DNA from: Gordius sp. MW1
Lineage: Eukaryota; Nematomorpha; Gordioida; Gordea; Gordiidae
DNA: 64,000 nucleotides
Reading direction: 5' to 3'
NCBI GenBank assembly: GCA_964036665.1
Contig: OZ038527.1
Coordinates: 6,696,001 to 6,760,000 of the forward strand
Every line of letters starts with the position of its first letter. The stretch's first letter is position 1. Both the position numbers and the translations under genes were made by a program. This document shows positions 4,731 through 37,800 of the stretch, piece by piece. Below the pieces are notes generated by a model. That model did not search any database and was not told the origin of the DNA. It worked only from the letters and a program-made list of their open reading frames with translations.

Positions 4731-5000
4731 AGTCAAAAAAAAGTCCGGGATTCCAACCCCAAAACTAGTTAAATTGCATAGCAATTAAAAAGTAAACAAC
4801 TTTTATTTATGTTTATTTATAACTAGTTAAATTGCATAGCATTAAAAGTAAGCAACTTTTATCTATATTTATTATATAACCAAAACTAGTTAAATTGCAT
4901 AGCAATTAAAAGTAAACAACTTTTATTTATGTTTATTATATAACTAGTTAAATTGCATAGCATTAAAAGTAAACAACTTTTATCTATGTTTATTATATAA
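4455..5000 (+). repeat. Tandem array, about 60-bp unit
   Basis: Repeats of aactagttaaattgcatag followed by caattaaaagtaaacaactt and tttatttatgtttattatat, several copies, some lacking a few bases. The same array lies at 38245-38760 in copy 2. Confidence 0.85.
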
Positions 5001-5263
5001 TAGATAATTTAACAAATCTTATATATAACACACCGAGGGAGATATAGATGAGGGGTGGGGCACCTCTTATGCATTAATTTAAAAAATAACACAGCGAGGG
5101 AGATAGAGATGAGGGGTGGGGCACCTCTTTCTCATGCATTAATTTAAAAAAGCGATAACCTAATATACCCAATGCAAATAGATAGGGAGGGTAACGGACG
5201 ACGGACGACGGACGACGGACGACGGACACCAAAAAACGATCCCATAAATTGCATAGCAATTAA

Positions 5264-5562: not shown

Positions 5563-5953
5563 AATATGGTGGTCTACCCTCGACGATGACTTAGTGAGCA
5601 TAGCAAAAGGGTGCCGAAGTTGCAATTACACTGCCGCGGCGGCGAAGAGGGCACCGTTGATAGAGTGTCAGCCTAGCCATAGACCTTGGGCTCAAGTAAA
5701 AATGGATATCATGGGACCTCTCAAGGGTAAATCATACCTGGTTATGGTGGACAATAGTTCGAAATGGGTAGAGGTGTTTAAATTAGATGACACCACATCG
5801 ACCACCATTATAAAAAAACTTGCCGAAACGTTTGCTAGATTTAGAAATACACCATTTTTAATATCAGATAACGGGCCGCAATTCAAAGGGCAGGAATTAA
5901 AGAATTTTTGCAAGATGAGAGGGGTTAATATTCCCTTGCTCAACAATAAATAA
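5563..5953 (+). pseudogene. Ty3/gypsy-type pol remnant, part 2 (integrase)
   Basis: Continues the integrase of part 1 after the inserted element. The cysteines of the HHCC zinc finger (GCRSC) appear at about 5605-5625, then the catalytic core with the first Asp in MDIMGPL and the second in SDNGPQF. The frame ends at 5953, before the catalytic Glu would be reached, and the downstream DNA shows no further integrase or LTR, so the element is truncated. Confidence 0.88.
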
Positions 5954-16682: not shown

Positions 16683-17124
16683 TGGATATGGTTTAAAGGT
16701 CAACGATCGAAAAAAAGTATAAATGGAAATAAACGGTACAAGCACCCCATCGCTGGATAATCCTCTAAATTACCCAAAAGTAGACGGGCTTACATGCCTC
16801 GGCTCGATGCTACATCAAGAAGGAAGTTGCGCAACAGAAGTCAATGCCCGGATCCAAAAAGGATGGCTCTAATGGCGAAGTATATCCGGTGTAATGTGCG
16901 ACAAAAAAATGCCAATATGGTCGAAGAGCAAAGACTACAAATCCATCGTAACCGGTGTTACTCCATGGAAGTGAAACATGGGCATTAAACACCACGGAAG
17001 GAGAACTATTACAAGCCACGGAGATGAGAATGATACGGCGGAGCTTGGGGTATACTAAGCTCGACCATATGACGAATGACTTTCTTATGACAAAAATGGG
17101 TATTCAACCTATGGCGGACATTAG
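16683..17124 (+). pseudogene. LINE (RTE-like) reverse-transcriptase C-terminal remnant
   Basis: Conceptual translation gives the familiar tail of RTE-like LINE proteins: YLGSMLHQEGS, VNARIQKGW, SGVMCDKKMP, then a frameshift to GSETWALNTTEGELLQATEM and MRMIRRSLG. At least two frame changes make it a pseudogene. It is cut at 17124/17125 where tagtgttgtaaaa begins, so another element probably inserted there. Confidence 0.8.
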
Positions 17125-17580
17125 TGTTGTAAAAAACCAAGGGTTTCTATTGGTTGCCTGCAAGCGTTGGCGTTTATTTTCACCCAACCTTTTCAGTGTT
17201 AGGTGAATTTTCTTGGGAGGGCTTTGGCGTTTGGCGTTTTCGTCAAAAACACCCAAAGCGTTTTGGGTGTTTTTTTTGGGGGCACCTTTGGCGTTTAGGT
17301 TTGGGTGTATTAAACAGCTAAAGGGTTTGGGTGGATAATATTATTATCCCTTTTGGTTTGGTTTTGGTCGTTTTGGGTTGGGCATGCAAATATATCAATT
17401 TGTTTATATTATTCATTATATTTGTGTATTTAGATTTAGGTAATGAACTTTTAATTTAAGAAAATAAAAATAAATCTATCATGACGTCACAATCTAGTAA
17501 ATTATAGTTAATTATTATGCATTATAGAAGTAGGTAGTGAATCAATATGTTTTAATTATGAAAAAAAATTTGGTGAAGAT
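17125..17580. other. Start of an inserted element (TAGTGTTG end) and repeat-like DNA
   Basis: Begins tagtgttgtaaaaaacc, matching the ends of the hAT-like families in this window, directly at the break in the LINE remnant. Then come repeats of ttggcgttt and gttttgggtg to about 17390, a palindromic centre ggataatattattatcc and AT-rich DNA up to the minisatellite. The matching right end was not found. Confidence 0.45.
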
Positions 17581-18610
17581 TTGCCCCCCCCCTTTATTTT
17601 TTACCCTCTTTCTCACCTGGGGAAGAACGGCGGGCAGGTGGGGTGTTTGCCCCCCCCCCTATTTTTTACCCTCTTTCTCACCCGGGGGGGGGGGCGGCAG
17701 GGGGGTGTTTTGCCCCCCCCCTAATTTTTTACTCTCTTTCTGATGGGGGGGGGGCAGGGGGGTGTTTTGCCTCCCTCCCTAATTTTTTACCCTCTTTCTC
17801 ACCCGGGGAGGGGGGGGGGGGTGTTTGCCCCCCCCCTAATTTTTTACTCTCTTTCTGATGGGGAAGGGGGGGGGCAGGGGGGTGTTTCGCCCCCCCCCCC
17901 TAATTTTTTACCCTCTTTTTCACCCGGGGAGGGGGGGGGGGGGTGTTTTGCCCCCCCCCCTTATTTTTTACTCTCTTTCTGATGGGGGGGGGGGGGCAGG
18001 GGAGTGTTTTTTTACCCTCTTTCTCACCCGGGGGGGGGGGGGGGCAGGGGGGTGTTTTGCCCCCCCCCCTTATTTTTTACTCTCTTTCTCACCCGGGGAG
18101 GGGGGGGGGTGTTTTGCCTCCCCCCTTTTTTACTCTCTTTCTGACGGGGGGGGGCAGGGGGGGTGTTTTGCCCCCCCCCCTCCTTTTACTCTCTTTCTGA
18201 TGGGGGAAGGAAGGGGGGGTGTTTTGCCCCTTCCCCCCCCCCAATTTTTTACCCTTTTTCTGATGCGGGGGAGAGAGGGGGCAGGGGGGTGTTATGCCCC
18301 CCCCCCTAATTTTTTACCCTCTTTTTCACCCGGGGAGGGGGGGGGCTGTTTTGCCCCCCCCCCCCTTATTTTTTACTCTCTTTCTGATGGGGGGGGGCAG
18401 GGGGGTGTTTGCCCCCCTCTTATTTTTTACCCTCTTTCTCACCCGGGGGGGGGGGGCAGGGGGGTGTTTTGCCCCCCCCCTTATTTTTTACCTTCTTTCT
18501 CACCCGGGGAGGAGGGGGGGGGGGGTGTTTTGCCCACCCCCCTTTTATTTTTTACCCTCTTTCTCACCGGAGGGGGGGGGGGGTAGGTAATTTGACCCCG
18601 CCCCCTTTTT
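17581..18610 (+). repeat. C/G-rich minisatellite array A1 (left of the hAT gene)
   Basis: About 17 units of 50-60 bp. Each has a C-run, then ttattttttaccctctttct, then cacccggggg or gatggggg, a long G-run, and tgttttgc. Unit lengths vary through the homopolymer runs. The array is the reverse complement of array A2 at 23620-24740, and the hAT transposase gene lies between the two. Proline/glycine-rich frames across it come from the repeat. Confidence 0.95.
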
Positions 18611-19163
18611 TATCATTTTAAATGACAATAAATAGAAAACGATTATAAAGTGAGATTTATCTGGCCATTCAAGAGCAAATTTTGAATTCTATCCTTCAAT
18701 TAAAAATTAATATTTTAAAATTCTTTATTCTAAATTAATGACAGCTAACAGATCCCCCTCTAAATATTCCCGGCATTTTTATTAAAATAATCAATAGCAA
18801 TTTTAATCACAAAATTTAATTTCAAAAATATATTTTGAATTCCTCGCCTCTTGTAAAAGATAAAGACTTATTAATTTTATATAATGTCCCTTTTATTTTA
18901 TATACTATATTTTCAATATCAGAGAACAACATCTCGCGCGACTCAGACATATCACCACCCCCATGTAGCATGTACATGTACTAATCCACCCTCTCTCTCT
19001 CGTTGCAATGCATGCGCAATACCAGATTTAAACCTATCAGATTTAACTTAAGTACTATATAAATATATAAAAGGAATCATGGCACACCAAGGCATCGTGG
19101 GGCGTGGGCTGGCTAGGCTCTTTATTATATCATTTTACATTCATTTCTTTTTTAACGTATAAC
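18611..19163. other. Non-coding DNA upstream of the hAT transposase
   Basis: AT-rich, with a ctctctctct stretch near 18990 and tatataaatatataaaag near 19060 that could serve as a core promoter about 100 bp before the ATG. No element end identified. Confidence 0.4.
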
Positions 19164-22100
19164 ATGTCTAATTGTTACGATTTCGACTCTAACTCTAACT
19201 GTAGCTCTACTATGGATATGGATGAAAATGAAAGCGATGCTTTTTCTTATGACCAAAATTATGAGGTATACAATTTTTCACGAAATTTATAATTTATTTA
19301 TAAAGAGGATAATAGATGAACCTAGAAATTCAACTCCCATACCCACAATCAATAATTCACCTTCAATTATTTTAACTCCATCTGAATCTTCTTCGAAATT
19401 TTTGTGGACCCCAACCAAGAGTCGCCGTAGATGTAATATATGTGATAAGTTTTATAGCGGAAAAACATCAACAAGTATATTTTTAATTTTGAATAATTTG
19501 ATCTCACTTAGGGATGGATATTTTCCCGGGAAATTTGCTTAAAGGAAAATTCCCGGGAAAATACGGGAAATAAAGGGGGAAAACGGGAATTAACGGGAAA
19601 AATGGGAAAAGCAAGAAATTAAAGAGAAAAAACGAGCTATATAGATAAATTAGTATAAAAATATGTTAAGGAGTATGATAGACTAATTAAATTTATTTGT
19701 CGAACAATATAAAGAAGCAAATACAAGCATTTTATAATTAAATATAAATCAAAGTCATAAATTTTCAATATCAGAATCTTCGTTGAGTGAAAGACATTGA
19801 CTCATCAGAAGATGATACCAAATCATTGTAATCTTGTCAAATAGTTTATTCAACAAAGGACCTCCTATTGCTTTTCTGGAAGGGGGTTTGTAAGAAGGTT
19901 TTATAAATTTGAAAACATATATTTAACATTACTTGATTTGAAGTTAGTGAAAAATGTTTCACAGTTAAATGGCAATATAAAATATAATAAATTTTGCTAA
20001 AAATTTAATTAAATATACAGCATATGTTAATTTAATTTATATGGAAAGAATTTCAGATTCAGAGTAAGGCAATATAAAATTTAATAGATTTTGCTAAAAA
20101 TTTAATTAAATATACATCATATGTTAATTTATTTATATGGAAAGAATTTTAGATTCAGAATATAATGGCAACATAATATTTAATAGATTTTGCTAAATAT
20201 GTAATAAAATCTACAAGATTTGTACATTTAAATTATATGGAAAGAATTTGATATCAAATAACTAAATATTAATGTAACTTGAAGACTAATATAATTTTCA
20301 CAAGTGAAAAATGAGAAAATATTTTAAAATATTAGATAACACGATGTAAATATAAAATTGAACTAAATCAAAATAAGATATGAATCATAATTGATCATAG
20401 TATTTAACGAAAAAAAATATTTTTTAGGGGATTTTTTCCCGGGAAAAAACGGGAATTTTCCCGGGCAAAATTCCCATTGTGCCATCCCTAATTCTCACTA
20501 TAATTTTTTGAATTAGGTAATCTAAAATATCATTATTCAACATGCCATCCAAATGTGAATGACACATCAAAAAAGCAAATGTTGAAAGGAAATATGTCAG
20601 CGGATGACAATAAAGAAATAAATAAGTTGATTACAGACTTGATTATAGAAGAAGGCATATCATTTCGCCTTATAGAAAATAAAAAGTTCAAAGCTCTTTT
20701 TAAGCGAATTAACAATTCCATCCAAATAATTTCTAGACCCTCATTAATGAAGCATATCAAAAATTTGTATGACATAAAACTCCCTATGATACAAAATATT
20801 TTAAATGAAAATTACCATATTGCTTTAACGCTGGACTTATGGTCAAGCGTTCAATCTATACCATATATTGGCATAACTGCCCATGTTATAAATGAAGAAT
20901 TTGAACTGAAAAGTTATACCCTAGAGATTTCAAATATCCCCTACCCACATACGGGGAATAATATAGGGAAAAAAATATTAAGTATACTAAACAAATTTAA
21001 TATATCCACTAAAGTAGTGGCTATTACTACTGATAATGCCACCAATATGATATCATCAATGAACATTATTAATAAAACCAAAATCGAAGAAATATATCAT
21101 ATTCGATGTTTCGGGCATCTAATAAATTTATTCGTAAAATCCGGAGTTAAGGAATTTGAGGAGGATATTAATAAGGTTTCCAAATGGGTGAGGAAACTGC
21201 ATACTTCCCCAAAATTAATGCAAAAGTTTACAGATTTGGCAGATGTTAAAATTCCGTTGGATATTGTCACTAGATGGAATAGCACATTTAAGATGCTAAG
21301 TGTGTTTAACAAGGTAAATTAATAATTAATTTTATCTAAATTTTTAGAATATTAATATAATTAATTCACTTGGAATTAAAGATGGGGGTATATCGGATAG
21401 CCCATTATGTACAGAGGAGGATATCAAATTTCTAAAAGAAGTTGAGTCCTTTCTTTCCATATTCGACGTCATGACAAATTCTATTTCAACACAAACACAT
21501 CCTTCAATAGGATTGTGCGTATTTTACCTAAACAAAATACGCAAATATCTAAATGGTTTGACCCAGACAAACCCTAAAATTCAAAGAGCAGCCGAGTCCA
21601 TGCTTGAAAAACTTGGGCAATATGAAATTTTATTTGGATCTTTTAATTTTTACGTTGGGGTTCTACTTGACCCGCGACTAAAAAAGGAGAAGATGCCAAG
21701 GGATTGTCTAACCGAGTCCAATGATAGGGAACTTGATTTGTTGTTAGCTGTAACAACTCCAGATATTGAGATCTCACAAGAACTCTTATCTTCAACAGCA
21801 ATCGCCTTCCAATTACTTGAAGAGTAAATTATTTTGATTCTAATTTTATTTTGAAAAGGGATTGCCAAACTAGAGACGAAGAGTTGAAAAGATATTTGGA
21901 TCAACCTCTATTGGATGGTAAATTTATATTGTAAAATTATAATATTTTTTAGCGGAGAATGACATCCTACAGTGGTGGGCAATTAACAAAAGAAGATACC
22001 CTAGATTATCTAAAATTGCAAGAAAATATCTAGTCCAGCAGGGGACATCGGTACCGGCGGAAAGACTCTTTTCTGCTGCATCCAATTTAGTAACAAAAAA

Positions 22101-22167
22101 AAGAAATCAGATATCGTCTTCTTGTGTAAATTACATTTTATGTTTAAGAAATTGGGCTAATATGTGA
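19164..22167 (+). CDS. hAT transposase with BED zinc finger, apparently intact, six exons
   Basis: Cut-and-paste DNA transposase of the hAT superfamily. Exons 19164-19265, 19306-19474, 20517-21313, 21348-21823, 21859-21917 and 21953-22167 have GT/AG introns and consistent phases, totalling 1818 nt (605 aa). The BED finger (CNIC, then HYSTCH) is completed only after splicing intron 2. Catalytic RNase H-like Asp residues are seen in LTLDLWSS and TTDNATNM, and a CxxH pair in RCFGHLINL. The C-terminal dimerisation block has DILQWWAINKRRYPRL and VPAERLFSAASN, whose Glu is the likely third catalytic residue. No stop or frameshift is needed anywhere. Intron 2 carries a 982-bp MITE. Inverted minisatellite arrays lie on both sides. 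Family identity is secure; activity is inference. Confidence 0.92.
19509..20490. mobile_element. hAT-like MITE inside intron 2 of the transposase gene
   Basis: 982 bp. Ends tagggatggatattttcccg and its partner ttgtgccatcccta, with cccggg/aaacgggaa phrases in both terminal regions. The flanks are atctcact (left) and attctcact (right), an imperfect 8-bp duplication sharing tctcact. It encodes nothing. Internal direct repeats of about 95 bp lie at 19965-20245. Because it lies between donor 19475 and acceptor 20516 it need not disrupt the protein. Confidence 0.88.
19965..20245 (+). repeat. Three imperfect 95-bp direct repeats in the MITE
   Basis: Each contains tagattttgctaaaaattta or close variants, a catatgttaattt phrase and atatggaaagaattt. 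Confidence 0.8.
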
Positions 22168-23619
22168 TCGTTTACATTATTATTAAATAAATTATTAATT
22201 GAATCCATTTGTATTATCAAGGTATGTAGAAGTTGCGAATCTAATTATTATAAATAAAATCAATGAAAATTAAACTTTTTTTTATTATGTAAACTACTAA
22301 TTAAGTCAAAAGCAATTAAAAAATTAGGTTTCTTATTAAATAATAAGTAATAATTTAAATTAAGATGCTTAACTCATTTTTGTTACTCAGAAAAGTCCTA
22401 TATTTTTTATGATCCTTATCAGCATTGTAAACGCGAGATCTAAGTCAACAGGACGTAGAGTGTGGGTGTCTTGTGAAAGCTTAGTAATTAATAGCATGAT
22501 AGGCTTTTTGGAAATACCTGAAGTTTTTCCATTAAATGCCAAGATAACTTAAATAGTAAAACTTGCTTACCCATGATGGCAAATTTTTTTAAATTGGTAA
22601 AACTTCATATAAATATTATATTTAAAAATACAATTTTCTATAAAGGTAACTAATTTTGTTAGGCATATCAATCAACTCTTCTCATCTTAATCTCCTGTTA
22701 ACTCACTCACAGGTTTATGACTACTCTAGTATACGTAATCATAGAATCATCAAGGACTTGATAAAATGTTATAACTGTTATGTTCATATACCATCTTCAG
22801 ACGAAGAACTATAAAAACTGCACTTTTTAATATTAGACTTATTAAAAAATCAAAAAATGCAGGAAAAATCACAGAAATAAGCACTTTGAAATACCACGAG
22901 GAAAATTAATTATGTTAAAATCAGAGTTTAAAATTTGAATATTTTAATAAAAAGATATGTATACAAAAAATTGATTTACAAATGGGTTTACAATAATGGG
23001 TTTTAATAATATATTTAAAAAAAATGTTGAAAATGTTTTTTATTTTATTTTATGGAAGGTGGGGTCGTGGAAGACCCTGGGCATCTAAAACACTCTCTAT
23101 CTTAAAAACTAATGGATAAAAACTAGCCAAATTTTGCAGAGATATTCTAGGGTAAATTTTGTTAAGCTACTGAAAAAATGAAATTGCAATATTTACTAAT
23201 TTATTTTGTACAGCATTTTTAAACGGCTTGGAGTTTTATAACCCCACCCGACCTATGAAGTGTTAAATGAAGTTAAATTAAAAAAATTTATTTTAATTGA
23301 TATGGTATATCTATATTAAGACAATTTTTGACCACAAATCTTCAAAAATATGTTTTCGAATATTAGAAAATCTTTGTCATATAATAAGTCAATTTTAAAA
23401 AATATTAAACAGAAAATGTTGATAATGACATTTGTCACCACTGTGACCGCAAATCTTCCCAAAAATATTTTTTCTCATAGTAGAACATCTTTTAGTCATA
23501 TAATAAGTCTATTTTCAAAAAAAATATTAATTTCAATAGAAAATGTTGATTATGACATTTGTCACCACATTGACCGCAGAAATTCACAAAAATATTTTGA
23601 AGGGTTAAAAAAGGCTTTC
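22168..23619. other. Non-coding DNA downstream of the hAT gene, with a tandem repeat
   Basis: No gene recognised. Positions 23328-23600 hold about two and a third copies of a roughly 120-bp unit containing cataataagtc, gaaaatgttgat and gacatttgtcaccac. Confidence 0.6.
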
Positions 23620-24740
23620 CGCCCACCCCCCCCCCCGGGAGAGAAAGAGGGTAAAAAATAAGAAGAGGGGCGAATCACCCCCCCCCCCCCAAAGAGGGTA
23701 AAAAAATAAGGGGGGGGGGGTGGCAAACAACCCCCCTGCCGACCCTCTCCCCCGCATCAGAAAGAGGGTAAAAAAATAAGGGGGAGGGGCAAAAAACCCC
23801 CTCCCCCTCTCCCCCGCATCAGAAAGAGGGTATGAAATTAGGGGGGAAAAAACACCCCACCCCCCCCCCCCCGGGTGAGAAAGAGGGTAAAAAAAGGGGA
23901 GGGGGCAAAACACCCCCCCCCTCTCCCCCGCATCAAAAACAGGGTAAAAAATTAAGGGGCGGGGCAAAACACCCCCCCCCCCTCCCCGGGTGAGAAAGAG
24001 GGTAAAAAAAGGGGGGGGGGCAAAACACCCCCTCTCCCCCGCATCAGAAAGAGGGTAAAAAATTAAGGGGGGGGGGCACCCGGGTGAGAAAAAGGATAAA
24101 AAAAATGGGGGGGGGGCAAAATACCCCCTGCCCCCCCATCAGAAAGAGAGTAAAAAATTAGGGGGGGGGCAAAACACCCCCCTCTCCCCCGCATCAGAAA
24201 GAGGGTAAAAAAAAAGGGGGGAGGGCAAGGGGGGGGGGCAAAACACCCCCCTGCCCCCCCCCATCAGAAAGAGAGTAAAAAATTAGGGGGGGGGGGGCAA
24301 AACACCCCCCCCCCCTCCCCGGGTGAGAAAGAAGGTAAACCATTAAGGGGGGGGGGGCAAAACACCCCCCTGCTTCTCCCCTCTCCCCCGCATCCGAAAG
24401 AGGGTAAAAAATTAGGGGGGGGGGGGGCAAAACACCCCCCCCCCCCCCCCCCCCCCATCAGAAAGAGTGTAAAAAATTAGGGGGGGGGGCAAAACACCCC
24501 CCCTCCCCCCCCCCCCCTTGGGTGTGAAAGAGGGTAAAAAATAGGGGGGGGGCAAAACACCCCCCTGCCCCCCCCCCCCCCATTAGAAAGAGAGTAAAAA
24601 ATTAGGGGGGGGGCAAAACACCCCCCTCTCCCCCGCATCAGAAAGAGGGTAAAAAATAAGGGGGGGCAAAACATCCCCCTGCCCCCCCCCCCCCATCAGA
24701 AAGAGAGTAAAAAATTAGGGGGGGGGGGCAAAACACACCT
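23620..24740 (-). repeat. C/G-rich minisatellite array A2 (right of the hAT gene)
   Basis: About 20 units, the same repeat as A1 but in opposite orientation: G-run, caaaacaccc, C-run, gcatcagaaagagggtaaaa or gggtgagaaagagggtaaaa. A1 and A2 form a long inverted pair around 18611-23619. Confidence 0.95.
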
Positions 24741-25435
24741 AAGCACGTATAAGATGCCTTTTTAAATTATCTTCCCGTAGGTCCTAAATTGTAGATAAAA
24801 TTAATATGAGGCGAGCATTGTGGATTTAATAGCACCGCCACAGGTGCCTATTTCCTAGCTACATTTAGGCTAAACACTCTCAGCATTTTACATTATTATT
24901 ATTATTATTATTATTATGAGCACACGGTTGTTAGTTATACATGTTCACAGTAACACCTAGTATCTAATAGCACATCCGAGTCTTATTGATAAAAGAATAT
25001 ACTAAGGGCCGGCTTGTTCCAAACCCACATTTAAAGTCCTTATAAAAAAGAGACTAGCACTTATAATATGGTTATTTTATGAACACCATATACAGCATTT
25101 TTCTTTACTCTTACACTTCTTGACTCTCCTCCCGCACACTAGTGGGAGAGAGCAGGATGATCAATCATGGCTTTTGAAAGAGAACGCTCTTTTTTCTACT
25201 TAATAAGGAGAGAGAAAGAGCGTTCTTTTTCAAAGGCTATGATTGATTACCCTATTTCTCTCCTATAATGTGCAAGAAGGAGTTAAGATGTGCAAAACTA
25301 AAGAAAAACGCTGTAATTCTCTCTAACAAAACGGCGCGCCCCTCCCCGGCACGCCCGTTACAACATTATGTAAAACACTAAAAAATAGAGAAATAATATA
25401 GCTGCCATTTCCTCGTTATTAATTGCTATTATAAT
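24741..25435. other. Non-coding DNA with (ATT)n and a 230-bp imperfect palindrome
   Basis: An ATT microsatellite lies at 24892-24917. From about 25090 to 25325 the arms pair in reverse complement around a centre near 25203 (gagaacgctctttttt with aaagagcgttc; acagcatttttctttac with gtaaagaaaaa-type complement). It is probably a MITE; its ends and target duplication are not clear. Confidence 0.6.
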
Positions 25436-26020
25436 TAGAGATGCACCGATACCAAGTATCGGCATGGTATCGGCGCCGATACCTTGCCAAAAGTATCGGC
25501 TGATACTTTGCTAGTATCGGCAACTACCAAGTCGATACCTTTTTTAATATGAAACTCAAAAAATAATACTTATAGTATCTCCTACGATTAAAAAATAGAG
25601 GACTTTTCAAATTTTTTGAAAATTGTTTCATTTGATTGGCTATAAATATTTCTATGTGGAGTATAATAAACTCATTGACCATCTGTTCCGACTGCGCTTT
25701 TAAGTAAATATTATTTTATTTTAAAAATTATTATATATTAAGCCTTAGATGGATTCTTTAGATACACTATGGAGTTATTTTGTTGTGTCAGCAGATGAAA
25801 AAATTGTAATCTGTGAATTATGCAAAGCTAAAATAAGTCGTGGGGGCAAAGACAAACATTCCTTTAACACTTCAAATTTAAGGAAACATTTAAAAACTAG
25901 ACATTTAGTATAAAATTTTTTTTATTATAAGTATCGGCATGGTATCGGTATCGGCAAAAAAATCTTAAGTATCGGCTGGTATCGGTATCGGCACAAAATA
26001 GTGGTATCGGTGCACCTCTA
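25436..26020 (+). mobile_element. 585-bp hAT element that keeps only a BED-finger ORF
   Basis: The ends tagagatgcaccgatacc and ggtatcggtgcacctcta are inverted, and both subterminal regions are packed with gtatcggc or its complement. The flanks attataat at 25428-25435 and 26021-26028 are a perfect 8-bp duplication. The interior carries a 54-codon BED zinc-finger ORF and no catalytic domain. It is an internally deleted hAT element, mobile only with a transposase supplied elsewhere. Confidence 0.93.
25749..25913 (+). CDS. 54-aa BED-type zinc finger protein within the hAT element
   Basis: A short ORF from ATG 25749 to stop 25913. It begins MDSLDTLWSYF, has the first Cys pair in CELC and ends with the loop TSNLRKHLKTRH, matching the BED consensus (Cx2C, Hx4H) seen at the N terminus of hAT transposases. 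The protein ends right after the finger, so it is only the DNA-binding module of a transposase. It could bind element ends and interfere with transposition, or be a deletion by-product; its frame is open and all zinc ligands are present. Confidence 0.75.
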   Translation: MDSLDTLWSYFVVSADEKIVICELCKAKISRGGKDKHSFNTSNLRKHLKTRHLV

Positions 26021-26202
26021 ATTATAATTACTGTTTAATTATTACAAAAAGAAGTCAAATATTTTTCTTTAAATTAAAGTAAAGTCCTGACTATTATGAC
26101 CTAAAAACACTTTTAAAACTTAAATTTGAATATACCTAAATTAGACATAGAACAATTATCCAACATTAATAATAAAAAAAGCATTAATTTGTTCTAATGT
26201 CA

Positions 26203-26961
26203 TTAATTGAACATAATATCATTATAAGATTTTTTGAATTTTTCGATTTCTTTTAAGATTTTTTTGTTATCTGCTTTGAACCTAGTTATGCAATCTGATA
26301 AATGATTTCTAATATTTTGCATTTTTAAATATTCCTCATATTCCCTGCTCTCATTTTCGCATGCATTCTCTCTTGGCTTTATATTTGTAAATGACGATGA
26401 TACCGAGATATTAGTTTCCTCGTATTTTTGTTGTTCATAATGGTCTTTCATTTCTTGATAAATTTTTCCTAACCTAACAAGCTTGTGTACGTCCTGCCTA
26501 ATACTGGCGACCGTCTCAGACATCAACGCACTTCTCTGCACCGGTTCTTCAGAAGTTTGTAATCGATTTCTTTCACCTACCTCACCACTTAACCTGCTTG
26601 ATTCATTGCGTTCAGCGCTATTTACATTCGAAATTGATATAGCAGAATTGCTTAAGCTTGCCACTCCCACCTTTAATGGTTTAGAGGAATCAATCAGCGT
26701 TTTTCTGTTAATTTCTATAACTTTACTTGTATCATGTAGAGGATTGCCATGTTTCCGATAGCTAAATGTAGAACGATGACTACTATCCGAAGAATCACCG
26801 CGCGCACCTATGCATTCTTCAAATGTGGAAGTACTTAGTTGATCTAATGTGAGCTTATTATGGTCATTTCGCTTATTTTTTATGCTGCAATAATTTGGAT
26901 CTTCAATCGTGACTATATAAGAGACTTTGCTGCTCAGCGATTTTTTTCCTTTAGTTGTCAT
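26203..26961 (-). CDS. Unrecognised 252-aa coiled-coil protein, single exon
   Basis: An open frame without introns from ATG 26961 to a stop at 26203. It starts MTTKGKKSLSSK. An earlier non-ATG part of the frame is not needed. Residues about 1-135 are polar, rich in Ser, Asn and Lys, and probably disordered. From about 140 to the end heptad-like patterns (VASIRQDVHKLVRLGKIYQE, then LKMQNIRNHLSD and ILKEIEKFKKSYND) suggest coiled coil. I do not recognise a family. Codon use and length argue for a real gene or a recently dead one. It lies between the BED-only hAT element and the first visible peroxidase exon, on the opposite strand from the latter. Confidence 0.65.
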   Translation of the reverse strand: MTTKGKKSLSSKVSYIVTIEDPNYCSIKNKRNDHNKLTLDQLSTSTFEECIGARGDSSDSSHRSTFSYRKHGNPLHDTSKVIEINRKTLIDSSKPLKVGVASLSNSAISISNVNSAERNESSRLSGEVGERNRLQTSEEPVQRSALMSETVASIRQDVHKLVRLGKIYQEMKDHYEQQKYEETNISVSSSFTNIKPRENACENESREYEEYLKMQNIRNHLSDCITRFKADNKKILKEIEKFKKSYNDIMFN

Positions 26962-26985
26962 GAAACGTCTGCCAACTAATAACAA

Positions 26986-27986
26986 TTGCGATTTTATTCG
27001 TCAAATCTTGAATAACTAGTATATGCATTGTTGTATTGTAAATAGATTATTATGCAAATTTATTAACATAAAATTTGCCATTTAAGTGGCATTCCAATAC
27101 CTGTACCTATAGTAACACTTCAACATTTAATTTATGACAATTCTATTTATTTGAAAGTTAAAAGTATAATGATAACATTATAAATAATGCAAAAAAATTA
27201 ATTATAAGAAGTTTAGTTTAAAGTGTGGCAGCGTAACTTAAAAAATAACATATCTTGGTCTTTCATCGAGCAATAACAGTTTAAGGAATTCTTAGAATAC
27301 TAAAATACGCAAAGGATAGGCTGTTTAAAAAATCATATACAATAGAAAAAAGGAATTATTTTACCGAATCTTTTAGTCTGAAATTCTTAGAGGATATATG
27401 GATCTTTAAAGAACCTTCAAGAGGTTTAAGTTTCCACTGATTTCGTTTCGATTAGTTTGTATTTTAATTTATATTTAGGTTGGTTTCTAAATTTAATCGG
27501 TATCGCTTATGAACTGCTTAGAAAACTTTTTTCATATAAATTAAATGACCTAAAGCGTTTTAGAAATCTACATTATTTGTCAGAAAAACAAATAAAATGA
27601 CGAAGTCTGAAATTAATACTTTGTGGTAAACATTTATTTGGAATGATTCATTCCTTTAGGTGAATATTCTCTAAAAAATAATATTTTTATTATTCTAATT
27701 ATGAAAATATTAATAAAAAGAAAAAATTGTGGTGATTAAAAAAACACAGAAATTTAATGGTTAGTCTACTCAATCTTACGTCGCTTTTAAAAAACGGTAG
27801 GGATTTATATTATTTAACAAATATTTTTACAACTTTACAAATTTTGATTCCTAAGCTATCTGAATCTGAAACATTAGATCTTTCGTTAAATACGTATTTT
27901 TAATATGCATAAATAACGAATGTTGATATATTAACAATTTATAAATGAAGGGTAAATTATCTTTAACCGCACGGCACCGTTGTTCA
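26986..27986. other. Non-coding AT-rich DNA
   Basis: No feature recognised. The missing 5' exon(s) of the peroxidase could lie here or further upstream; no signal peptide exon was identified. Confidence 0.4.
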
Positions 27987-28155
27987 CATGGGCGTAGCCA
28001 GCATTAGAATTAGAGGGGGGGGCAATAATGATTTAGGGAGGGGCTAAATGAACACTTTTTGAAATTTTAGCCATAATTTTAATAAATTTCAATTTTTTGG
28101 ATTTAGAGGGGGGCAGCTACCCCTCCCTGCTCCCCCCCCCTTAGCTACGCCCATG
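27987..28155. mobile_element. CATGGGCG-family MITE, copy 4
   Basis: catgggcgtagccagc to gctacgcccatg, with G- and C-runs inside. The flanks gttgttca and tttgttta match at six of eight positions, so the duplication is partly decayed. Confidence 0.85.
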
Positions 28156-28811
28156 TTTGTTTATATATTTTAGACTAAAACAGATTATTTTTTTGTTCTA
28201 GTTAATTGTTTAAGCGTTTTAGACAGTAAAACCATATTGATCTTATATATTAAATCACGTCGCCCTAAGGCCGTAAAGTTTGTTTATCCTAACAAATTAA
28301 GCTTTCGTTCAGTCTTTCCATTTCGGTCTTTTACAAATTTTCAATTTTTTAAACTAAATTTTTTAGCTAGCGATATATAGCATTATGAAGTAAATTAATT
28401 CTTACATATATTAATATTGTTAAAAAGCGAAATTGGCTGCAACATATTATTTTGCCATTTATTCCTGTTCTTTTGGTGGTTACAATTAGCTCATTCTTCC
28501 AACGAAACTTCCATAAAACCCTTTAATATTTCAAGAACCTCAGGTAAAATATTGGGCCAATTATCTAAATATTTAGAATTTAATTAATGCATGTTGAATA
28601 AAATTTTATGTAATTTACAATCTTTCAATATATACAATTTATAGGAATTATTTATTTTTAACACTGTCTTCGGTTAACATTAATTAAACGTCTATACAGT
28701 TTATTTATTATAACTTTTTTTGATCCTTAAAACATTTGATTCAAAATAAGTCTAATTTTAAATTAAAAATGGACTTGTTTAATTTCAATTGAAGAGCAAA
28801 TAATAATTTAG

Positions 28812-31800
28812 TTTTGGGCGATGCACTGGGCAAGAATAATAAATTGGAAATTGATGCGGATTATCTCAAAAATATTTTTGCGCTTGAAACTGCCTACGTA
28901 GACAAATGGTTTGGCGAGATGGGCCAATCCGGTAAGGCACATAATTTTAAAAACAAATTAAGCTATCAAAATGTTAAAATTCAACAACCAATTTATTAAA
29001 ACTAAAAATATAGTACATTTTTGGTATAATAAGTACTATAAAGTTGTCGACCATTGAAAAATTTTGTTCACACGGCACTATATATAAAGCATATTCTTGA
29101 AAGTTTCCATTTTATTTGATAAATTTGTTTAACATTTTATAATCATTCAACCATAAAAACGCAAATTATTGACTTGGCATCAAGGTAAAAAGGATTAATT
29201 GTAACTTGATACTATAAATATTGCAATTTAATACAGAGGGCCCAAACAGATCTGAGAGGATGTGAATTAATACTAAAAAATAAATGTATGAAGTGGTCGG
29301 GTCAGGCTTTATAGGCTAAACCGAAGCGATTTTAGTTTTTTTGATAATGATGATAAATATTTAGCATAATTATTAAGCATAATAATAAATTTTATGTTCA
29401 ATCTACCTTCGCCCAATAATTTTTTGGTTTAAATTTGGAAATTTTATTAAAAATACAAGTAAAATAGCTAACTCCTTATACTACAATTAACATAATGAAT
29501 ATATAAATTCTAGAATAAATACCTATCAGTAGAGTTGTTAAATCGCTCGCATGAGCAATGATCACTATGGGCTTTGCTCGAGCACGCACATTGAGCTGTT
29601 TAATTTGCTAGTTAGAACAATGAGTGCTCGCTGTTCGGTGCCCCTTCGGGTTAGAAAAAGGGTAAAAAAATAGGCCCCCCCCCCGTGTGAGAAAGGGTAA
29701 AAAATAGGGGGGGGGGGGGGTGAGAAAGAGGGTAAAAAGAGGGGGGGGTGGCAAACCAACGGGACAAAAGGGGCAAAGTTCTTAATTTATTTATGATATA
29801 TAATATGAGAAAATATTGTAAGTTACTAAATTATAACAAATAGCATTTAAATCTGCTTACTCGAGTTTACTGCTCAAGCTATCTGCTAAATGCTTTAACA
29901 GATTTAGCTGCTTCGACTCGCCTCTCGAGCATTTTTACATGCTACTGTTCTGCATAGTGCACCGAACAGCGAGCACTCATTGTGCTAACTAGCATATTTT
30001 TTTTATGGTTAAAGAGTTTATTTTCACGAAACAAAGTTAAATAAATAAGCGAAAAACAATGTTTACCAAAGGAACCGGAGCACGAGGCAACGACAGGGAT
30101 AAAAATATTGGATGCCAAAAGGGCAGAATACTTTGTAGTTTTACGCCCTTCTGCTGTAGCGAGGTCGTAATTAAAATGGGAAGAGGCAAATAGGGCAATA
30201 CAAGTAAAATCCCATTTGAGGGATAGGCCATTTTGCCAAGGGACTAGAGAAGAGCCGTCAGGGCGCATCCGACCTTCAAGAGAGGGATCTGACGGCTCAA
30301 GGATTGGGGGGGGGAATTTTGCCTTTTTAAGGGCAGCTTGAATTAATAAATTAGCTTTAGTGTGCCTAACATATTTATATTTGTTTGCTAGGCAGTGTAG
30401 AGGGTGCCTAGCATATTCGTCTACAATAGTGAGACATTTTCGACAATTGGATTCTTTGCTGTAACTAATACCCAACCTTAAAGCAAAGCAATGGAATATG
30501 ATAGCTCAAAGTCTTCAAGCATTCCCAAAAGTTTGCTGGGATAGGCTTTAAGCCACTCATGACCGGAACCATCAAAAGCGAGGGACTTAAGGTTGTAATG
30601 CTGGCTATCATCGCTGCTCGATAAAAGGTAATCAAAGGAGCGCGATACTTGTCCAGCCAGTTTTTTTGTTTCGTACTTTGAGGTTGAATGGTCTCGGGTG
30701 TGACATTCAAATTCCAAAGCTCCAAGGCTTGAGTTAGCAGAGGGTCGGAATCATGTGATGTGAGATTGAAAATTAAGTTTTGGACCGACTTAAAAGAGGA
30801 AATAAAAGCAGCTAGCGATATGCTGCCGGGAGGACGTATTCCTAATCCTCCAGATTTGGTTGGGAGGGCTTGAATCCAATTATTAGTATTCAATTTTAAA
30901 TTTTAAATTTTTTCTAATAAAGTTTTTAAAAAGCCTTCGTACGACTTTAAAACGTCTGGGTGTAAAAATGCACCAGATGAGCGAAAACAATGATTAATCT
31001 TTGAAATGTTAAAATAGTTTTTGATTATGTAAAAAGAGTGATGTGCAGTAGTGTTGTTAAAATGCCAAAATGCTACTACCATAACCTATGGTAGTAGCAT
31101 ACATCTCGCCCATTACCATCATCATAACCAGCATCATGCTGCTTAATAACCCGGTTGCTATCACTGGCAACCATGGTTGCTTGGTTGTAAAAGATGTAAG
31201 TAACCGGGCATTTGGCAGATAGGATTGATATAACCGTGGTATTGAGCAGGCTCGTTTTAAACTAAACATTGTTTTTAGCAAATTCAATTTTAGCTTACTA
31301 TTAGAGTTGGTAGCTGCCATATAATGCTAATCAATATTTTTCAATCATTTATTAATACAAAAATGGTGATTAAAAAATTTAAATATATTATAAATTTGTC
31401 CCGTTATTTTGCCCCCCCCCCCCTAATTTTTTATCCTCTTTCTCACCAGGGGGGAGGGGGGGGGGTGTTTTGCCCCCCCCCCTAATTTTTTATCCTCTTT
31501 CTCACCAGGGGGGGGCAAAACCCCCCCCTAATTTTTTATCCTCTTTCTTACCAGGGGTAAGGGGGGGGGGGGGGTGTTTTGCCCCTCCCCCTATTTTTTA
31601 TCCTCTTTTTGACGAGAGGGGAGGGGGGGGGGGGGGTGTGTTGCCCCCCCTTATTTTTTATCCTCTTTCTCACCAGGGGGTGCCCCCCCCCCCCTAATTT
31701 TTTACGTTCTTTCTTACCAGGGGGGAGGGGGGGGGTGTTTTGCTCCCCCCTTATTTTTTATCCTCTTTCTCACCAGGGGGGAGGGGGGGTGTTTTGCCCC

Positions 31801-34800
31801 CCCCTAATTTTTTATCCTCTTTCTCACCAGGGGGTAGGGGGGGGGTGTTTTGCCCCCCCCCACCCCCCCCCCCCTTATTTTTTATCCTCTTTCTGACAAG
31901 AGGGCAGGGGGGGGGGGGGTCTTTTGCCCCCCCCTTATTTTTTTACCCTCTTTCTCACCAGGGGGGAGGGGGGGGGAGTGTTTTGCCCCCCCCCCTTATT
32001 TTTTTACCCTCTTTCTCACCAGGGGGGGGGGGGGGTGTTTTGCCCCCCCCCCCCTAATTTTTTACGCTCTTTCTTACCAGGGGGGAGGGGGGGGGGGGTG
32101 TTTTGCCCCCCCCCTTATTTTTTATCCTCTTTTTAACCAGAGGGGGGGGTGTTTTGCCCCCCCCCCCTTATTTTTTATCCTCTTTTTGACCAGAGGGGAG
32201 GGGGGGGGTGTTTTGCCCCCCCCCCCTTATTTTTTATCCTCTTTTTGACCAGAGGGGAGGGGGGGGGGTGTTTTGCCCCCTCCCTTATTTTTTACGCTTT
32301 TTCTCACCAGGGGGGGGGGTGTTTTGCCCCCCCCCCTTAGGAGTTTTTATAAATAATAGCAAAAAATATAACTAGTCGTAGTCTAGCTAGCCACTCTACT
32401 AGTTAGTCTCTCTCCTCTCCTCTCATTCTCAATCTCACTCATGTAATGTATCCGTATGAGATGAGATAAAGGAAGGGGGGGATGAGTTTATAAAAAACAA
32501 TAGAAAATGATTTAAGATTGCCACTTTTGAAATAAAAAAATAAAGTTTTAGCCAAAGTGGTTGAAAATATTTAAAGAGATAGACAGTTGCTTCTATATGA
32601 TAAAATTATTTGAAGTCAATTATAAATAACATTAATTGCAACCCTTGAGCCATAAGTTCCTGTAATTTTTAAAACCATTATAACAAGCATTTTGGCATTT
32701 ATTTAAATATAAATTTTAAAATCACTCCCCCCAGGTTAGAAATAGGGTAGAAAAGAAGGGGGGGTCAAAACACGCCCCCCTCCCCTGTGGTCAAAAATAG
32801 GATAAAAAATAAGGGGGGGGGGGGGAGCAGAACACCCCCCCCCCCCCCCTCCCCCCTGGTGAGAAAGAGGATAAAAAATAAGGGGGGGGGGCAAAACACC
32901 CCCATCCCCCCTGGTAAGAAACAGCGTAAATTAGGGGGGGGCCAAACACCCCCCTCCCCCCTGGTGAGAAAAAGCGTAAATTAAGGGGGGGGGCAAAACA
33001 CCCCCCCCCCCCCCTGGTGAGAAAGAGCGTAAAAAATAGTGGGCCCCTCTGGTCAAAATAAGGATAAAAAATAAGGGGGGGGGGGGCAAAACATCCCCTC
33101 CCTCCCCCTGGTGAGAAAGAGGATAAAAAATAAAGGGGGGGGCAAAACACCCCCCCCCCCTTCCCCCTGGTGAGAAAAAGCGTAAAAAATAAGGGGGGGG
33201 GCAAAACACCCCCCCCCCCCCCTCCCCCCTGGTGAGAAAAAGCGTAAAAAATAGTGGGGGGGGGCAAAACACCCCCCCTCCCCTCTGGTCAAAATAAGGA
33301 TAAAAAATTATGGGGGGGGCAAAACACCCTCCCTCCCCCCTAGTGAGAAAGAGGATAAAAAATAAGGGGGGGGGCCCTGGTAAGAAAGAACGTAAAAAAT
33401 TAGGGGGGGGGGGCAAAACACCCCCCCCCCCCTGGTGAGAAAGAGGATAAAAAATAAGGGGGGGCAAAACACCCCCCCCCCCCCTCTGGTCAAAATAAGG
33501 ATAAAAAATAAGGGGGGGGGGGCAAAAAATTTCCCCCCCCCCTGGTGAGAAAGAGGATAAAAAATAAAGGGGGGGGGGGCAAAACACCCCCCCCCCCCCT
33601 TCCCCCTGGTGAGAAAAAGCGTAAAAAATAAGGGGGGGGGCAAAACACCCCCCCCCCTCCCCCCTGGTGAGAAAAAGCGTAAAAAATAGTGGGGGGGGGC
33701 AAAACACCCCCCCTCCCCTCTGGTCAAAATAAGGATAAAAAATTAGGGGGGGGGGCAAAACACCCTCCCTCCCCCCTAGTGAGAAAGAGGATAAAAAATA
33801 AGGGGGGGGGCAAAACACCCCCCCCCCCCTGGTGAGAAAGAGGATAAAAAATAAGGGGGGGGCAACACACCCCCCCCCCCTCCCCTCTCGTCAAAAAGAG
33901 GATAAAAAATAAGGGGGGGGGGCAAAACACCCCCCCCCCTCCCCCCTGGTGAGAAAAAGCGTAAAAAATAGTGGGGGGGGGGGCAAAACACCCCCCCTCC
34001 CCTCTGGTCAAAATAAGGATAAAAAATTAGGGGGGGGGGGCAAAACACCCCCCCTCCCCCCTAGTGAGAAAGAGGATAAAAAATAAGGGGGGGGCAAAAC
34101 ACCCCCCCCCCCCCTCCCCCTTTGGTAAGAAAGAACGTAAAAAATTAGGGGGGGGGGCAAAACACCCCCCCCCCCCTGGTGAAAAAGAGGATAAAAAATA
34201 AGGGGGGGGCATGTTACCCCCCCCTCCCCTCTCGTCAAAAAGAGGATAAAAAATAAGGGGGGGGGGCAAAACACCCCCCCCCCCCCCCTCACCCCTGGTG
34301 AGAAAGAGGATAAAAAATAAGGGGGGGGGCAAAACACCCCCCCCCCTGGTGAGAAAGAGGATAAAAAATAAGGGGGGGGCAACACACCCCCCCCCCTCCC
34401 CTCTCGTCAAAAAGAGGATAAAAAATAAGGGGGGGGGGGCAAAACACCCCCCCCCCCCCTCCCCCCTGGTGAGAAAAAGCGTAAAAAATAGTGGGGGGGG
34501 GCAAAACACCCCCCCTCCCCTCTGGTCAAAATAAGGATAAAAAATTAGGGGGGGGGGCAAAACACCCCCCCTCCCCCCTAGTGAGAAAGAGGATAAAAAA
34601 TAAGGGGGGGGGGGGGCAAAACACCCCCCCCCCCCCTCCCCCTCTGGTAAGAAAGAACGTAAAAAATTAGGGGGGGGGGGCAAAACACCCCCCCCCCCCC
34701 CTGGTGAAAAAGAGGATAAAAAATAAGGGGGGGGCATGTTACCCCCCCCCTCCCCTCTCGTCAAAAAGAGGATAAAAAATAAGGGGGGGGGCAAAACACC

Positions 34801-37800
34801 CCCCCCCCCTCACCCCTGGTAAGAAAGAGGATAAAAAATTAGGGGGGGGCAAAACACCCCCCCCCCCCCCTGGTGAGAAAGAGGATAAAAAATTAAGGGG
34901 GGGGGGCAAAATAACGGGACAAATTTATAATATATTTAAATTTTTTAATCACCATTTTTGTATTAATATATGATTGAAAAATATTGATTAGCATTATATG
35001 GCAGCTACCAACTCTAATAGTAAGCTAAAATTGAATTTGCTAAAAACCATGTTTAGTTTAAAACGAGCCTGCTCAATACCACGGTTATATCAATCCTATC
35101 TGCCAAATGCCCGGTTACTTACATCTCTTACAACCAAGCAACCATGGTTGCCAGTGATAGCAACCGGGTTATTAAGCAGCATGTGCTGCTTAATAATGAT
35201 GGTAATGGTAGGAGATATGTGCCTATTACCAGGTTTAGCACTATACCAGCAGAACCCATTTAGCAGATTAACAACACTAATGTGCAGGCAAGCATTTTAA
35301 AAGTTCCGTTTTAGATTTTAAAATTTCAAGGTTCTTATGAAGAAAATTTAAAAGAGATTTTTCACCGCCAATGGGTGATCCCAAAAGGGATGTGTTTTCT
35401 CTCTCTAAAACTAAAAAAGTTTTAAAAATTGGAAAGTCAATAGTGTTGGAGGCCTGAAAGATTAACATTTTTTCGAGTTTAATTTAAGATTTAGAGTGGG
35501 TTCAAAATTTTTGATGATTTCTATAACTTTACTAATCTCCTCCGGGCGGCCACATAGGGTGGCGTCGTCGAGATACCAAACATTTAAATCGAGGGTACAC
35601 TGAGATGATGCCTCGACTTAATTATGAATGGCTAAACAAAATAAAGGAGGGCCTAATTTAATAAAGCAGGACTCGGTATGAATATTTTGAAGTGTGATCC
35701 GGCCAGCACAGCCGCCTTTAAGTCCGAAGCCGAGTTGATGAGAGCAGAGCTTGGCGGATAAGGAGGATTTTATGAGTTTGCATTAGATATGATACGGCGA
35801 AAACTTCCAATGGCAATGGGTCTACGAAGTTATCCGGTTTTTTAATGGCCATAAGTTTTGCACCGAATAAAATAGGGAGGATTTCATGAGGAAATTTTCC
35901 ATTAACAATAATATTACAAAAAGAAGTAATAGAATTTAAAAGAAGTTCAGTATTTAATTTAGTTAAGTTGAGTAAATCTTGTAGATATATTGGGCGCCAT
36001 CCGTCTAGTCCGGCTGAGGAGTCCAAAGGGAAGGAGTTAAGGGCTTCACGGAAGTCTGAAGACTCAAGCACTATTGATGATGGAGATGTGGGGTATTTAC
36101 TGGCTGAGGATGCTGGTAGATGTTTTTTATTAAGCTCCCTATAAGACCTATAACGTTTTCGCTCTTATTGGAGCCTATCAGTATGCAATAGAAAATTAAA
36201 CTGAGATTGCCGCATCGTTTGTCTCTTATCATTTTCGAGTCACTGCTAAAAAAGATAGGGATATATATAATAGTTCAAATTAGTCTCTAATTAAAATTGC
36301 CTATAGATGGCGCTAATAATAGTATTCTTTTAATTTACTGCGGCACTCCTGAAAGGGGTTATTATTATTATCTTCTGATTTATATCCTAAACCCGCAATT
36401 TTTAACTAATTTCTAATATAATATAACTATAAGTTTAGTAGGCATGAAAGGAATATTCAGTTGTTGCTGCTGGTGATAATTGAATAAATCCTTTTCTTAT
36501 ATTTTGGAAATAATATAGGTGTGTGAATGATAATTAATGCTTCAGGTCTAGAATGGGTTTATAAATTGATAAGTCCCTTTTTAATAAAGTTTATAATTTT
36601 TTGATCTGATCATAAACATCAGCTGATTCATTTTCTAAAGTGTGCGTGCTCGCGTTTGGAATTGAAGTAGTTAGCAATTTAAAACCACTACCTACCAGCA
36701 ATTTTATTGGATAAAAAAATAATAAAATTTAAATATATAGGATTTTATAACCATATACGACTAGTCAACGTTACAATTAACATTCCATATACTAAACTAT
36801 TTTATTTTGACTGGTGAGCTTCGTAAAATCGGGTTTTATAATGCTGCGATAGCATAAGGATGCATTAGTTATTAATCTTCTAATGTTGAAATTATAATAA
36901 TAGTAAATGTTCATAACTTTTAAATTGTCCTAAATAATATGTTATCCAAAATTTGCTATTTAAAGGATATAAAGTAGGTGATTAAAGTGTGCTATATACC
37001 ATTTTGGCGATCGTGGGATTATAAGTGGTTTTTGTGCAGTAAATAACTGCCCTGAAAATAAAAATTGATATAACATTGCCCTATAGCTTTTTTATACCAC
37101 ATATTTTTGTGTAAATATATAAACTCGGGCCTTCGGCCCTCGTGGGAAGGGGGAGAAGGGAAGGGAAGAGGGGAAGGGAAGGGGGGACGACTCATCTGTA
37201 CTTCGTATAAATGTATCATATTTGCTATGCAATTTATGGGCGAGAAAGGTGGGAAGGGGCGAGAATGCCTATAGGGGGGTATTAAATGACTAATGATTAA
37301 TTAATTATTTATACAAATTTTTCATTATAGGCAAAATGTAATAAAGGCAAAATGTAATATAGGCAAGGGTTAGGGTTAGATTTAGTGTTTGCATCTAGTT
37401 GCGTATTACATTAGTTTTTATGGCCTTTAGAGATTATGGGTCTAACAAACATTATATTCTAAAACAACATGTTAAGAATTTGCAGAATTGTTGGGAGAAA
37501 TTTTTTGTTGAATTTGAACAATTTTTAATTAAAAAAATCAAAAATTTGGCCAATGGTCACTTTTTCTCTATTGGTCAGTACCAACAGATACTCTATAAGT
37601 CAATTATAGCCAAAAAAACAGAAAAAAAAATTTTGATGCTCACTTTGGCCAATGGTCATTTTTTTCCATTGGTCAGCAGCCAGCACACGGTAAAAGTGGA
37701 TATAAATTCATAAGAGTAAAAAAAACGAAAAAAAAATTTTCGAATCACATTTTGGCCAATGGTCATTTTTTTCCATTGGTCAGCAGCCAGGACACGGTAA

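Follow-up and report, generated by a model that had tools for sequence, protein, structure and literature searches.

Transposable elements of the hAT superfamily, to which Ac and Tol2 belong, carry short terminal inverted repeats (TIRs) accompanied by short subterminal motifs. Minisatellite or foldback arms are chiefly familiar from transposons of other groups, and the TU elements of sea urchins combine tandem-repeat arms with 8-bp duplications; we recognized nothing on TU elements in openly accessible papers. Here, we analyzed a window of 64,000 nucleotides from the genome of Gordius sp. MW1 (C1:6696001-6760000; the genome comprises 211.8 Mb in 12 contigs, designated by C numbers), in which two loci carry inverted arrays of a C/G-rich minisatellite unit. 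The window very probably contains two hAT foldback elements of one lineage: a right-truncated copy of an autonomous first family, A (17122-24740), and a young non-autonomous member of a second family, B (31049-35279).

The most similar described systems compare with these elements as follows. Galileo likewise has long TIRs that are internally repetitive and vary in length, with changes in the length of the tandem repeats, chimeric copies and exchange between subfamilies, but it encodes a P-superfamily transposase and makes 7-bp duplications, against a hAT transposase and 8 bp here (PMC3573991). The THAP domain of the Galileo transposase binds sites in the tandem repeats of its long TIRs (PMC3688188). 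Muta1, classed as a type 2 Foldback element and making 8-9-bp duplications (PMC5225508), and Tetris, which has a foldback structure and 8-10-bp duplications and was suggested by its authors to be a Mutator element (PMC4079207), resemble our loci in the subterminal tandem repeats of their inverted arms. However, Muta1 relies on a transposase of the Mutator-like element (MULE) type and none was found for Tetris, whereas a hAT gene lies between the arms here. Rehavkus is a DNA transposon with a minisatellite near one TIR; it differs by its 9-bp duplications, its PHD finger and the restriction of the minisatellite to the position before the 3' TIR (PMC6446971). Most foldback elements seem to be related to Mutator, with exceptions (PMC4079207). 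We recognized no description of a hAT foldback element in the openly accessible literature, a scope that excludes most subscription papers as well as Repbase.

Two armed loci in the window

At all four array places of the two loci, Tandem Repeats Finder reported tandem repeats with a unit length of about 54-62 bp. BLAST paired the arrays within each locus in inverted orientation (17702-18587 with 24739-23856 at 79% identity, and 31089-32339 with 35231-33910 at 80% identity). Both inverted array pairs lie where a preliminary description of the window had placed them. Since these arms are inverted at about 80% identity, those of both A and B are expected to snap back in single-stranded DNA. A 21-base pattern of the core of the C/G unit had 3,498 matches in the genome, relative to 0 for the reversed control, far more than chance would give, and 647 of the window's 837 bases in G-quadruplex motifs fall in the four arms (5,270 bases).

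The first locus is an autonomous-type hAT foldback element that is truncated on its right side in the window. At 17122 its left end, TAGTGTTGTAAAAAACC, breaks a retroelement that is uninterrupted at this position in L021, and no outer right end follows 24740 in the window copy. The preliminary description had located neither outer end, which now holds for the right one only. A complete sibling was found in C4 (C4:23401221-23409826; 8,606 bp) that is identical to the window copy over 3,816 bp and possesses end blocks, inverted minisatellite arms and the transposase gene in the arrangement GTGGAAGC-TAGTGTTGTAAAAA...TTTTTACAACACTA-GTGGAAGC, where GTGGAAGC is the 8-bp duplication. The 14-bp TIR TAGTGTTGTAAAAA stands at both ends of this sibling and of the copy at C2:4.49M. 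Reading the sibling also ruled out the idea that the locus is a transposase gene without linked ends.

From 143 genome matches, eight family A copies with closely similar transposases were examined on both sides: the window copy, the C4 sibling and those at C7:3.93M, C2:4.49M, C8:24.79M, C1:9.74M, C6:20.80M and C2:19.53M. Other matches, outside this count, include C7:0.61M, C2:5.56M, C5:9.36M, C5:16.52M, C6:17.06M, C4:13.41M and C8:11.35M. Arms were present on both sides in all eight copies. Both ends were present in six; the window copy is without its right end, and the right end of the C7 copy is interrupted by other sequence. Five of the six two-ended copies are bounded by perfect 8-bp duplications: GTGGAAGC in C4, CTACATAT at C2:4.49M, CTACAAAC at C2:19.53M, ATTTGTAC at C8:24.79M and GTACGTAT at C1:9.74M. 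The sixth (C6:20.80M) shows 7/8 matching bases next to an end with one altered base. The preliminary description proposed looking for copies that unite this transposase and the arrays with TAGTGTTG ends and an 8-bp duplication; such copies exist. The first outcome that it named as refuting, copies of the transposase with different ends and no arrays, did not appear among the eight.

The gene between the arms has the intact spliced hAT frame that had been proposed (Table 1). Its product combines a BED finger (zf-BED, above the Pfam cut-off), an RNase-H-like core and a hAT dimerisation domain (Dimer_Tnp_hAT, 1e-19). It aligns with Hermes over residues 192-601 (E = 8.5e-20), and its D197, D263 and E571 align with the D, D and E of Hermes that we take to be the catalytic residues. 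Beyond hAT-type domains and BED, the only Pfam matches were DUF659 and a weak one to PocR; neither the THAP domain of the P superfamily nor a MULE transposase was among them. The locus is therefore like hAT elements such as Hermes in its homologous catalytic and dimerisation regions, D, D, E residues, BED finger, short TIRs and 8-bp duplications, but its minisatellite arms, inverted and 1-2 kb long, set it apart from them.

The second locus is a hAT insertion of 4231 bp with TAGTGTTGTTAA and TTAACAACACTA ends and a perfect 8-bp duplication (ATGTGCAG), as first described. The joined flanks of this insertion are uninterrupted in all 40 scored copies of the host retroelement (95-97% identity; 280 candidates), and in the four target junctions read, ATGTGCAG is kept once in three and as a variant in one. 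The TAGTGTTGTTAA end had 532 matches in the genome, relative to 60 for its control. For the 358-bp left end block, 40 near-full copies were scored at 96-100% identity (424 candidates), the window copy and three others being the top full-length matches among those scored. Fifteen B copies were read at both ends, including the window element and the transposase-bearing copy L041; 12 have perfect duplications, one has 7/8 and two have none. Ten of these copies were chosen from places on C1 and C2 where a + and a - end lie within a few kb of each other (8 perfect, one 7/8, one none), and three further copies, like the window copy, have perfect duplications.

In two longer B copies, arms and ends of the same kind surround a hAT gene: L041 (C2:15836608-15843766), with both ends, and L051 (starting at C1:18520409), for which one end was read and the other was not found within the stretch read. 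These two copies are about 88-93% identical in long matching pieces. Their hAT gene is in broken pieces, and the C-terminus encoded by L051 matches the hAT dimerisation domain (1e-19). Because the spacer of the window element is 75-92% similar in parts to the sequence just inside the L051 arm, this young, non-autonomous element is best interpreted as derived by internal deletion from B, a sister family of A. Reverse-transcriptase-like frames, recognized by eye and without Pfam match, lie on the minus strand of the window at 29945-36164 and are split by the 31049-35279 element.

Table 1. Features of the two loci, in window coordinates
Feature	Position	Strand	Remarks
Target sequence GCGGACAT preceding the family A left end	17114-17121
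Family A left end block	17122..17580	+	C4 sibling begins at the same base
Family A left TIR TAGTGTTGTAAAAA	17122-17135	+	14 bp
Family A left arm	17581..18611	+	about 16 C/G-rich minisatellite units; median spacing 61; core TTTTTTACCCTCTTTCTCAC
hAT transposase gene	19164..22167	+	six exons; GT-AG introns; open frame; 605 amino acids (aa)
Exons of the transposase gene	19164-19265, 19306-19474, 20517-21313, 21348-21823, 21859-21917, 21953-22167		first exon least certain
Insert resembling a miniature inverted-repeat transposable element (MITE), TAGGGATGG...CCATCCCTA	19509..20490	.	982 bp; in intron 2
Segment variable among family A copies	22633..23262	.	in C4, C8:24.79M, C1:9.74M, C2:19.53M; not in L013, L029
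Inner repeat with TGACATTTGTCA	23329..23598	.	127-bp unit; 2.2 copies
Family A right arm	23620..24740	-	left-arm unit inverted; cut short
Target-site duplication ATGTGCAG, left copy	31041..31048	.
Family B left end block, TAGTGTTGTTAA end	31049..31406	+
Family B left arm	31407..32339	+	16 units; commonest core TTTTTTATCCTCTTTCTCACCAG
Spacer of the non-autonomous element	32340..32724	.
Family B right arm	32725..34911	-	32 units
Family B right end block, TTAACAACACTA end	34912..35279	-
Target-site duplication ATGTGCAG, right copy	35280..35287	.

Several further observations concern family A. The MITE-like insert of intron 2 is also present in the C4, C1:9.74M and C8:24.79M copies and not in the others; that these copies have it in common suggests that they have moved since the insert arrived. 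The position 22632/22633 is a further insertion or deletion hot spot among A copies, and those at C8:24.79M, C1:9.74M and C2:19.53M have about 0.8-1.6 kb of different sequence there. Two types of end block follow the TIR, ACCAAGGG and CGGCTGGCTGG (L039, L040, L042, L044 and L045). In the C7 copy, the second type occupies the side that bears the first in C4 and C2:4.49M, a pattern that looks like a swap or flip of the arms. Finally, C2:5556656-5667352 (L021-L024) contains four near-identical truncated A genes about 35-37 kb apart, one of them inverted, and is a segmental duplication.

Elsewhere in the window, a MITE-like repeat with inverted ends of the GATGCACCGATACC type (about 25437-26023) encloses a short frame that looks by eye like a BED finger. 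Pieces of a retroelement of the long terminal repeat type, with an RNase H match and, by eye, an integrase-like frame, lie at 518-979 and 5564-5950, flanking the 2.4-5.3-kb repeat. The tandem repeat CCAATGGTCA, which lies near hAT genes, was considered as a second arm type and rejected: it has the same orientation on both sides of the C8 gene and is a separate dispersed repeat. Its two copies in the window (3835-5263 and 37603-39028) are direct and 95% identical, with units containing CCAATGG...CCATTGG. Across the genome, 40 of 2,994 candidates were scored, nearly all of them full length at 95-100% identity.

Family E and the mobilization of the B element

We searched the genome with a 120-aa piece of the B transposase, which gave 125 matches (150 of 270 candidates scored). 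Only L041 and L051 exceeded 66% identity among the candidates scored. The next loci (C3:2.26M, C6:8.99M and C8:35.0M; 66% identity, open frame of 289 aa) define a third family, E, with the TIR TAGAGATGTTAAAATGC. Five of the six E-ended elements read at both ends have a perfect 8-bp duplication, the C6 copy being not cleanly readable. Compared over 114-165 aa, the transposases of A and B are 32% identical (114 aa), those of A and E 36%, and those of B and E 64% (121 aa). The end blocks follow the same pattern: over about 235-310 bp, those of E are 74-78% identical to B ends and 71-74% to the ends of the window element, and those of A have no BLAST match to B ends (E 1e-3) or to the ends of the window element. 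A shares with B only the outer 9 bases, which are identical, and the arm unit, and among the candidates scored E possesses the intact enzyme closest to that of B.

These relationships bear on the preliminary inference that the first locus is the autonomous relative that moves the second. Its autonomous foldback character has held up, but its role as the mover has not: B is a sister family, with E as its closest intact relative. It would speak for mobilization by the window's transposase A that this enzyme is intact, that A copies are young (as the C4 copy indicates by its match to the window), that the outermost bases and the arm unit are common to both families, and that all B transposases found are decayed. 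However, the end blocks of A and B are unmatched and their enzymes distant, whereas the intact E transposase and the E end blocks (71-78% relative to B and the window element) are much more similar to B. We therefore consider it unlikely that transposase A moves the 31049-35279 element, and regard cross-mobilization of B by A as possible. The mobilizer of the young B copies would be a surviving relative: E, A or an intact B absent from the assembly.

Family E has a different arm. Its unit is 119 bp long. Each side of C3:2.26M has 12 copies, and the single ends read in three other elements have at least four, about one and zero units. No C/G cores were found in the stretches read of family E (C6 and C3). 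The E unit shows a weak likeness to the 127-bp inner repeat of A, scoring 38.3 bits, a value reached by 0 of 100 shuffles of either of two kinds; we treat this likeness as a lead only. The E unit (L096) contains the palindrome TGACAATTGTCA, and the A inner repeat contains TGACATTTGTCA. We set aside a 74-bp match at 89% identity between the right inner flank of A (23195-23267) and an E copy, since either a repeat common to both or an exchange could account for it; the match ends near the edge of the segment missing from some A copies. C/G arms were also sought in the hAT relatives at C8:21.77M and C4:196.7k, and their cores were absent from the stretches read. Independently, C4:3791338-3894002 contains fifteen pairs of E ends, 102-106 bp from end to end, within about 103 kb, which represent a local amplification, whether of very small E-type elements or of a segment containing one.

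The arm unit across families

We sampled all 16 groups of C/G cores on C1 up to 2.66 Mb, which resolve into 17 clusters. Ends were called strictly, by a non-palindromic 8-bp duplication together with a TIR match of at least 12/14; we discarded a looser end-finder (8/14 TIR matches), which reported ends for 210 of 240 mismatched pairs. Strict ends were detected in 4 of 16 stretches, relative to 1 of 240 mismatched control pairs, and this sole control pair consists of two copies of a further family, C, about 17 kb apart with an identical duplication. Family C (L058, L063 and L066) has TATAGTTGTTAAAT/TAGAGTTGTTAAAT ends and the duplications TTCAAGGT, GTTAGAAT and AGGGTGGT. Another element, L055, has CATGAGCGTAGCCA ends, the duplication CATAGCAA and the C/G arm unit. 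Family A end blocks were found in L054 and L062, one C-type end in L059, and one TAGCG-type end each in L060 and the second cluster of L062. The tie between the arrays and hAT TAGTGTTG ends that had been proposed thus holds for A and B, and the arrays also occur with other ends. On both sides, the arms separate the end block from the interior, and in those A, B and C elements that were read inside and have a duplication, they lie within the unit that it bounds.

Are these arrays, alternatively, ordinary dispersed minisatellites that happened to be hit by hAT insertions? In favor of this reading, ends were not found in 8 of the 17 clusters (L052, L053, L056, L057, L061, L064, L065 and L067), and 4 of the 17 contain a single orientation; one of these, L054, belongs to an A copy, leaving three apparently solitary arrays. 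Yet every cluster with both orientations is strictly convergent, each + core preceding each - core (13 of 13), and young B copies carry the arms at different sites. Together with the position of the arms inside duplication-bounded units, this already contradicts the dispersed-minisatellite explanation for A, B and C, and we regard it as highly improbable overall.

The core variants broadly track families: GATGC and CACCC occur in A, L055 and L057, with GATGT in the A copy L054, and CACCAG or TACCAG occur in B, C, L059, L060 and L067. Arm length varies within a family. Four B copies have 16, 16, 15 and 16 left cores and 32, 22, 24 and 19 right cores, and their end blocks are identical at 358/358 positions on the left and 367-368/368 on the right. 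These counts indicate that arms change length faster than end blocks gain point mutations.

How distinct families came to possess one arm unit can be explained in two ways. The minisatellite may be an old inheritance of the A, B and E lineage, lost in E in favor of the 119-bp array and never exchanged. A and B indeed carry the unit in the same place, and the family-wise core variants fit a long separate evolution with homogenization; on the other hand, in both enzyme and ends B and E form the closer pair, with A more distant, so that inheritance needs a loss, and the unit also occurs in the CATGAGCGTAGCCA-ended L055. Weighing these points, we place inheritance slightly below an even chance. 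More tentatively, the C/G arm could be a transferable module that has moved among hAT families whose ends are unrelated and whose transposases are distant. Its proposed carriers would be A, B, C and the CATGAGCGTAGCCA-ended element, with the sister of B, family E, having a different arm. If so, arms and transposition cores would evolve as separate parts by recombination, and the arm unit would spread through the genome by changing carriers.

Foldback arms in a hAT lineage

Our interpretation remains that the window contains a right-truncated element of the autonomous family A, with an intact transposase gene, and a young non-autonomous B element of one hAT foldback lineage. In the mechanism that we propose, the transposase would excise the element at its short TIRs and insert it with an 8-bp duplication, the reaction being deduced from the products observed. 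Since arm lengths differ among copies with identical ends, the arms probably grow by slippage, unequal exchange and gene conversion. By analogy with Galileo, they most likely provide many extra transposase contacts that mark the ends of the element.

Some observations weigh against this interpretation. The DUF659 and hAT-like_RNase-H matches of transposase A lie below the cut-off. L062, which has A ends and no transposase match, has no matching duplication, nor does the transposase-bearing B copy L041. The array lengths could in part be assembly error. In family E, perfect duplications flank copies whose first kb, as read, shows about one arm unit (C5:5.86M) or no unit (C8:8.90M), so that long arms seem not to be needed for transposition in this family.

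This single genome offers complete, young transposase-bearing hAT foldback elements, their non-autonomous derivatives, an arm repeat with 3,498 core matches, and a sister family that has another arm unit. In that family, the ends read show between zero (or about one) and twelve copies of the 119-bp repeat. How foldback arms arise, and whether they act as arrays of transposase sites, thus become questions that can be tested within one genome.

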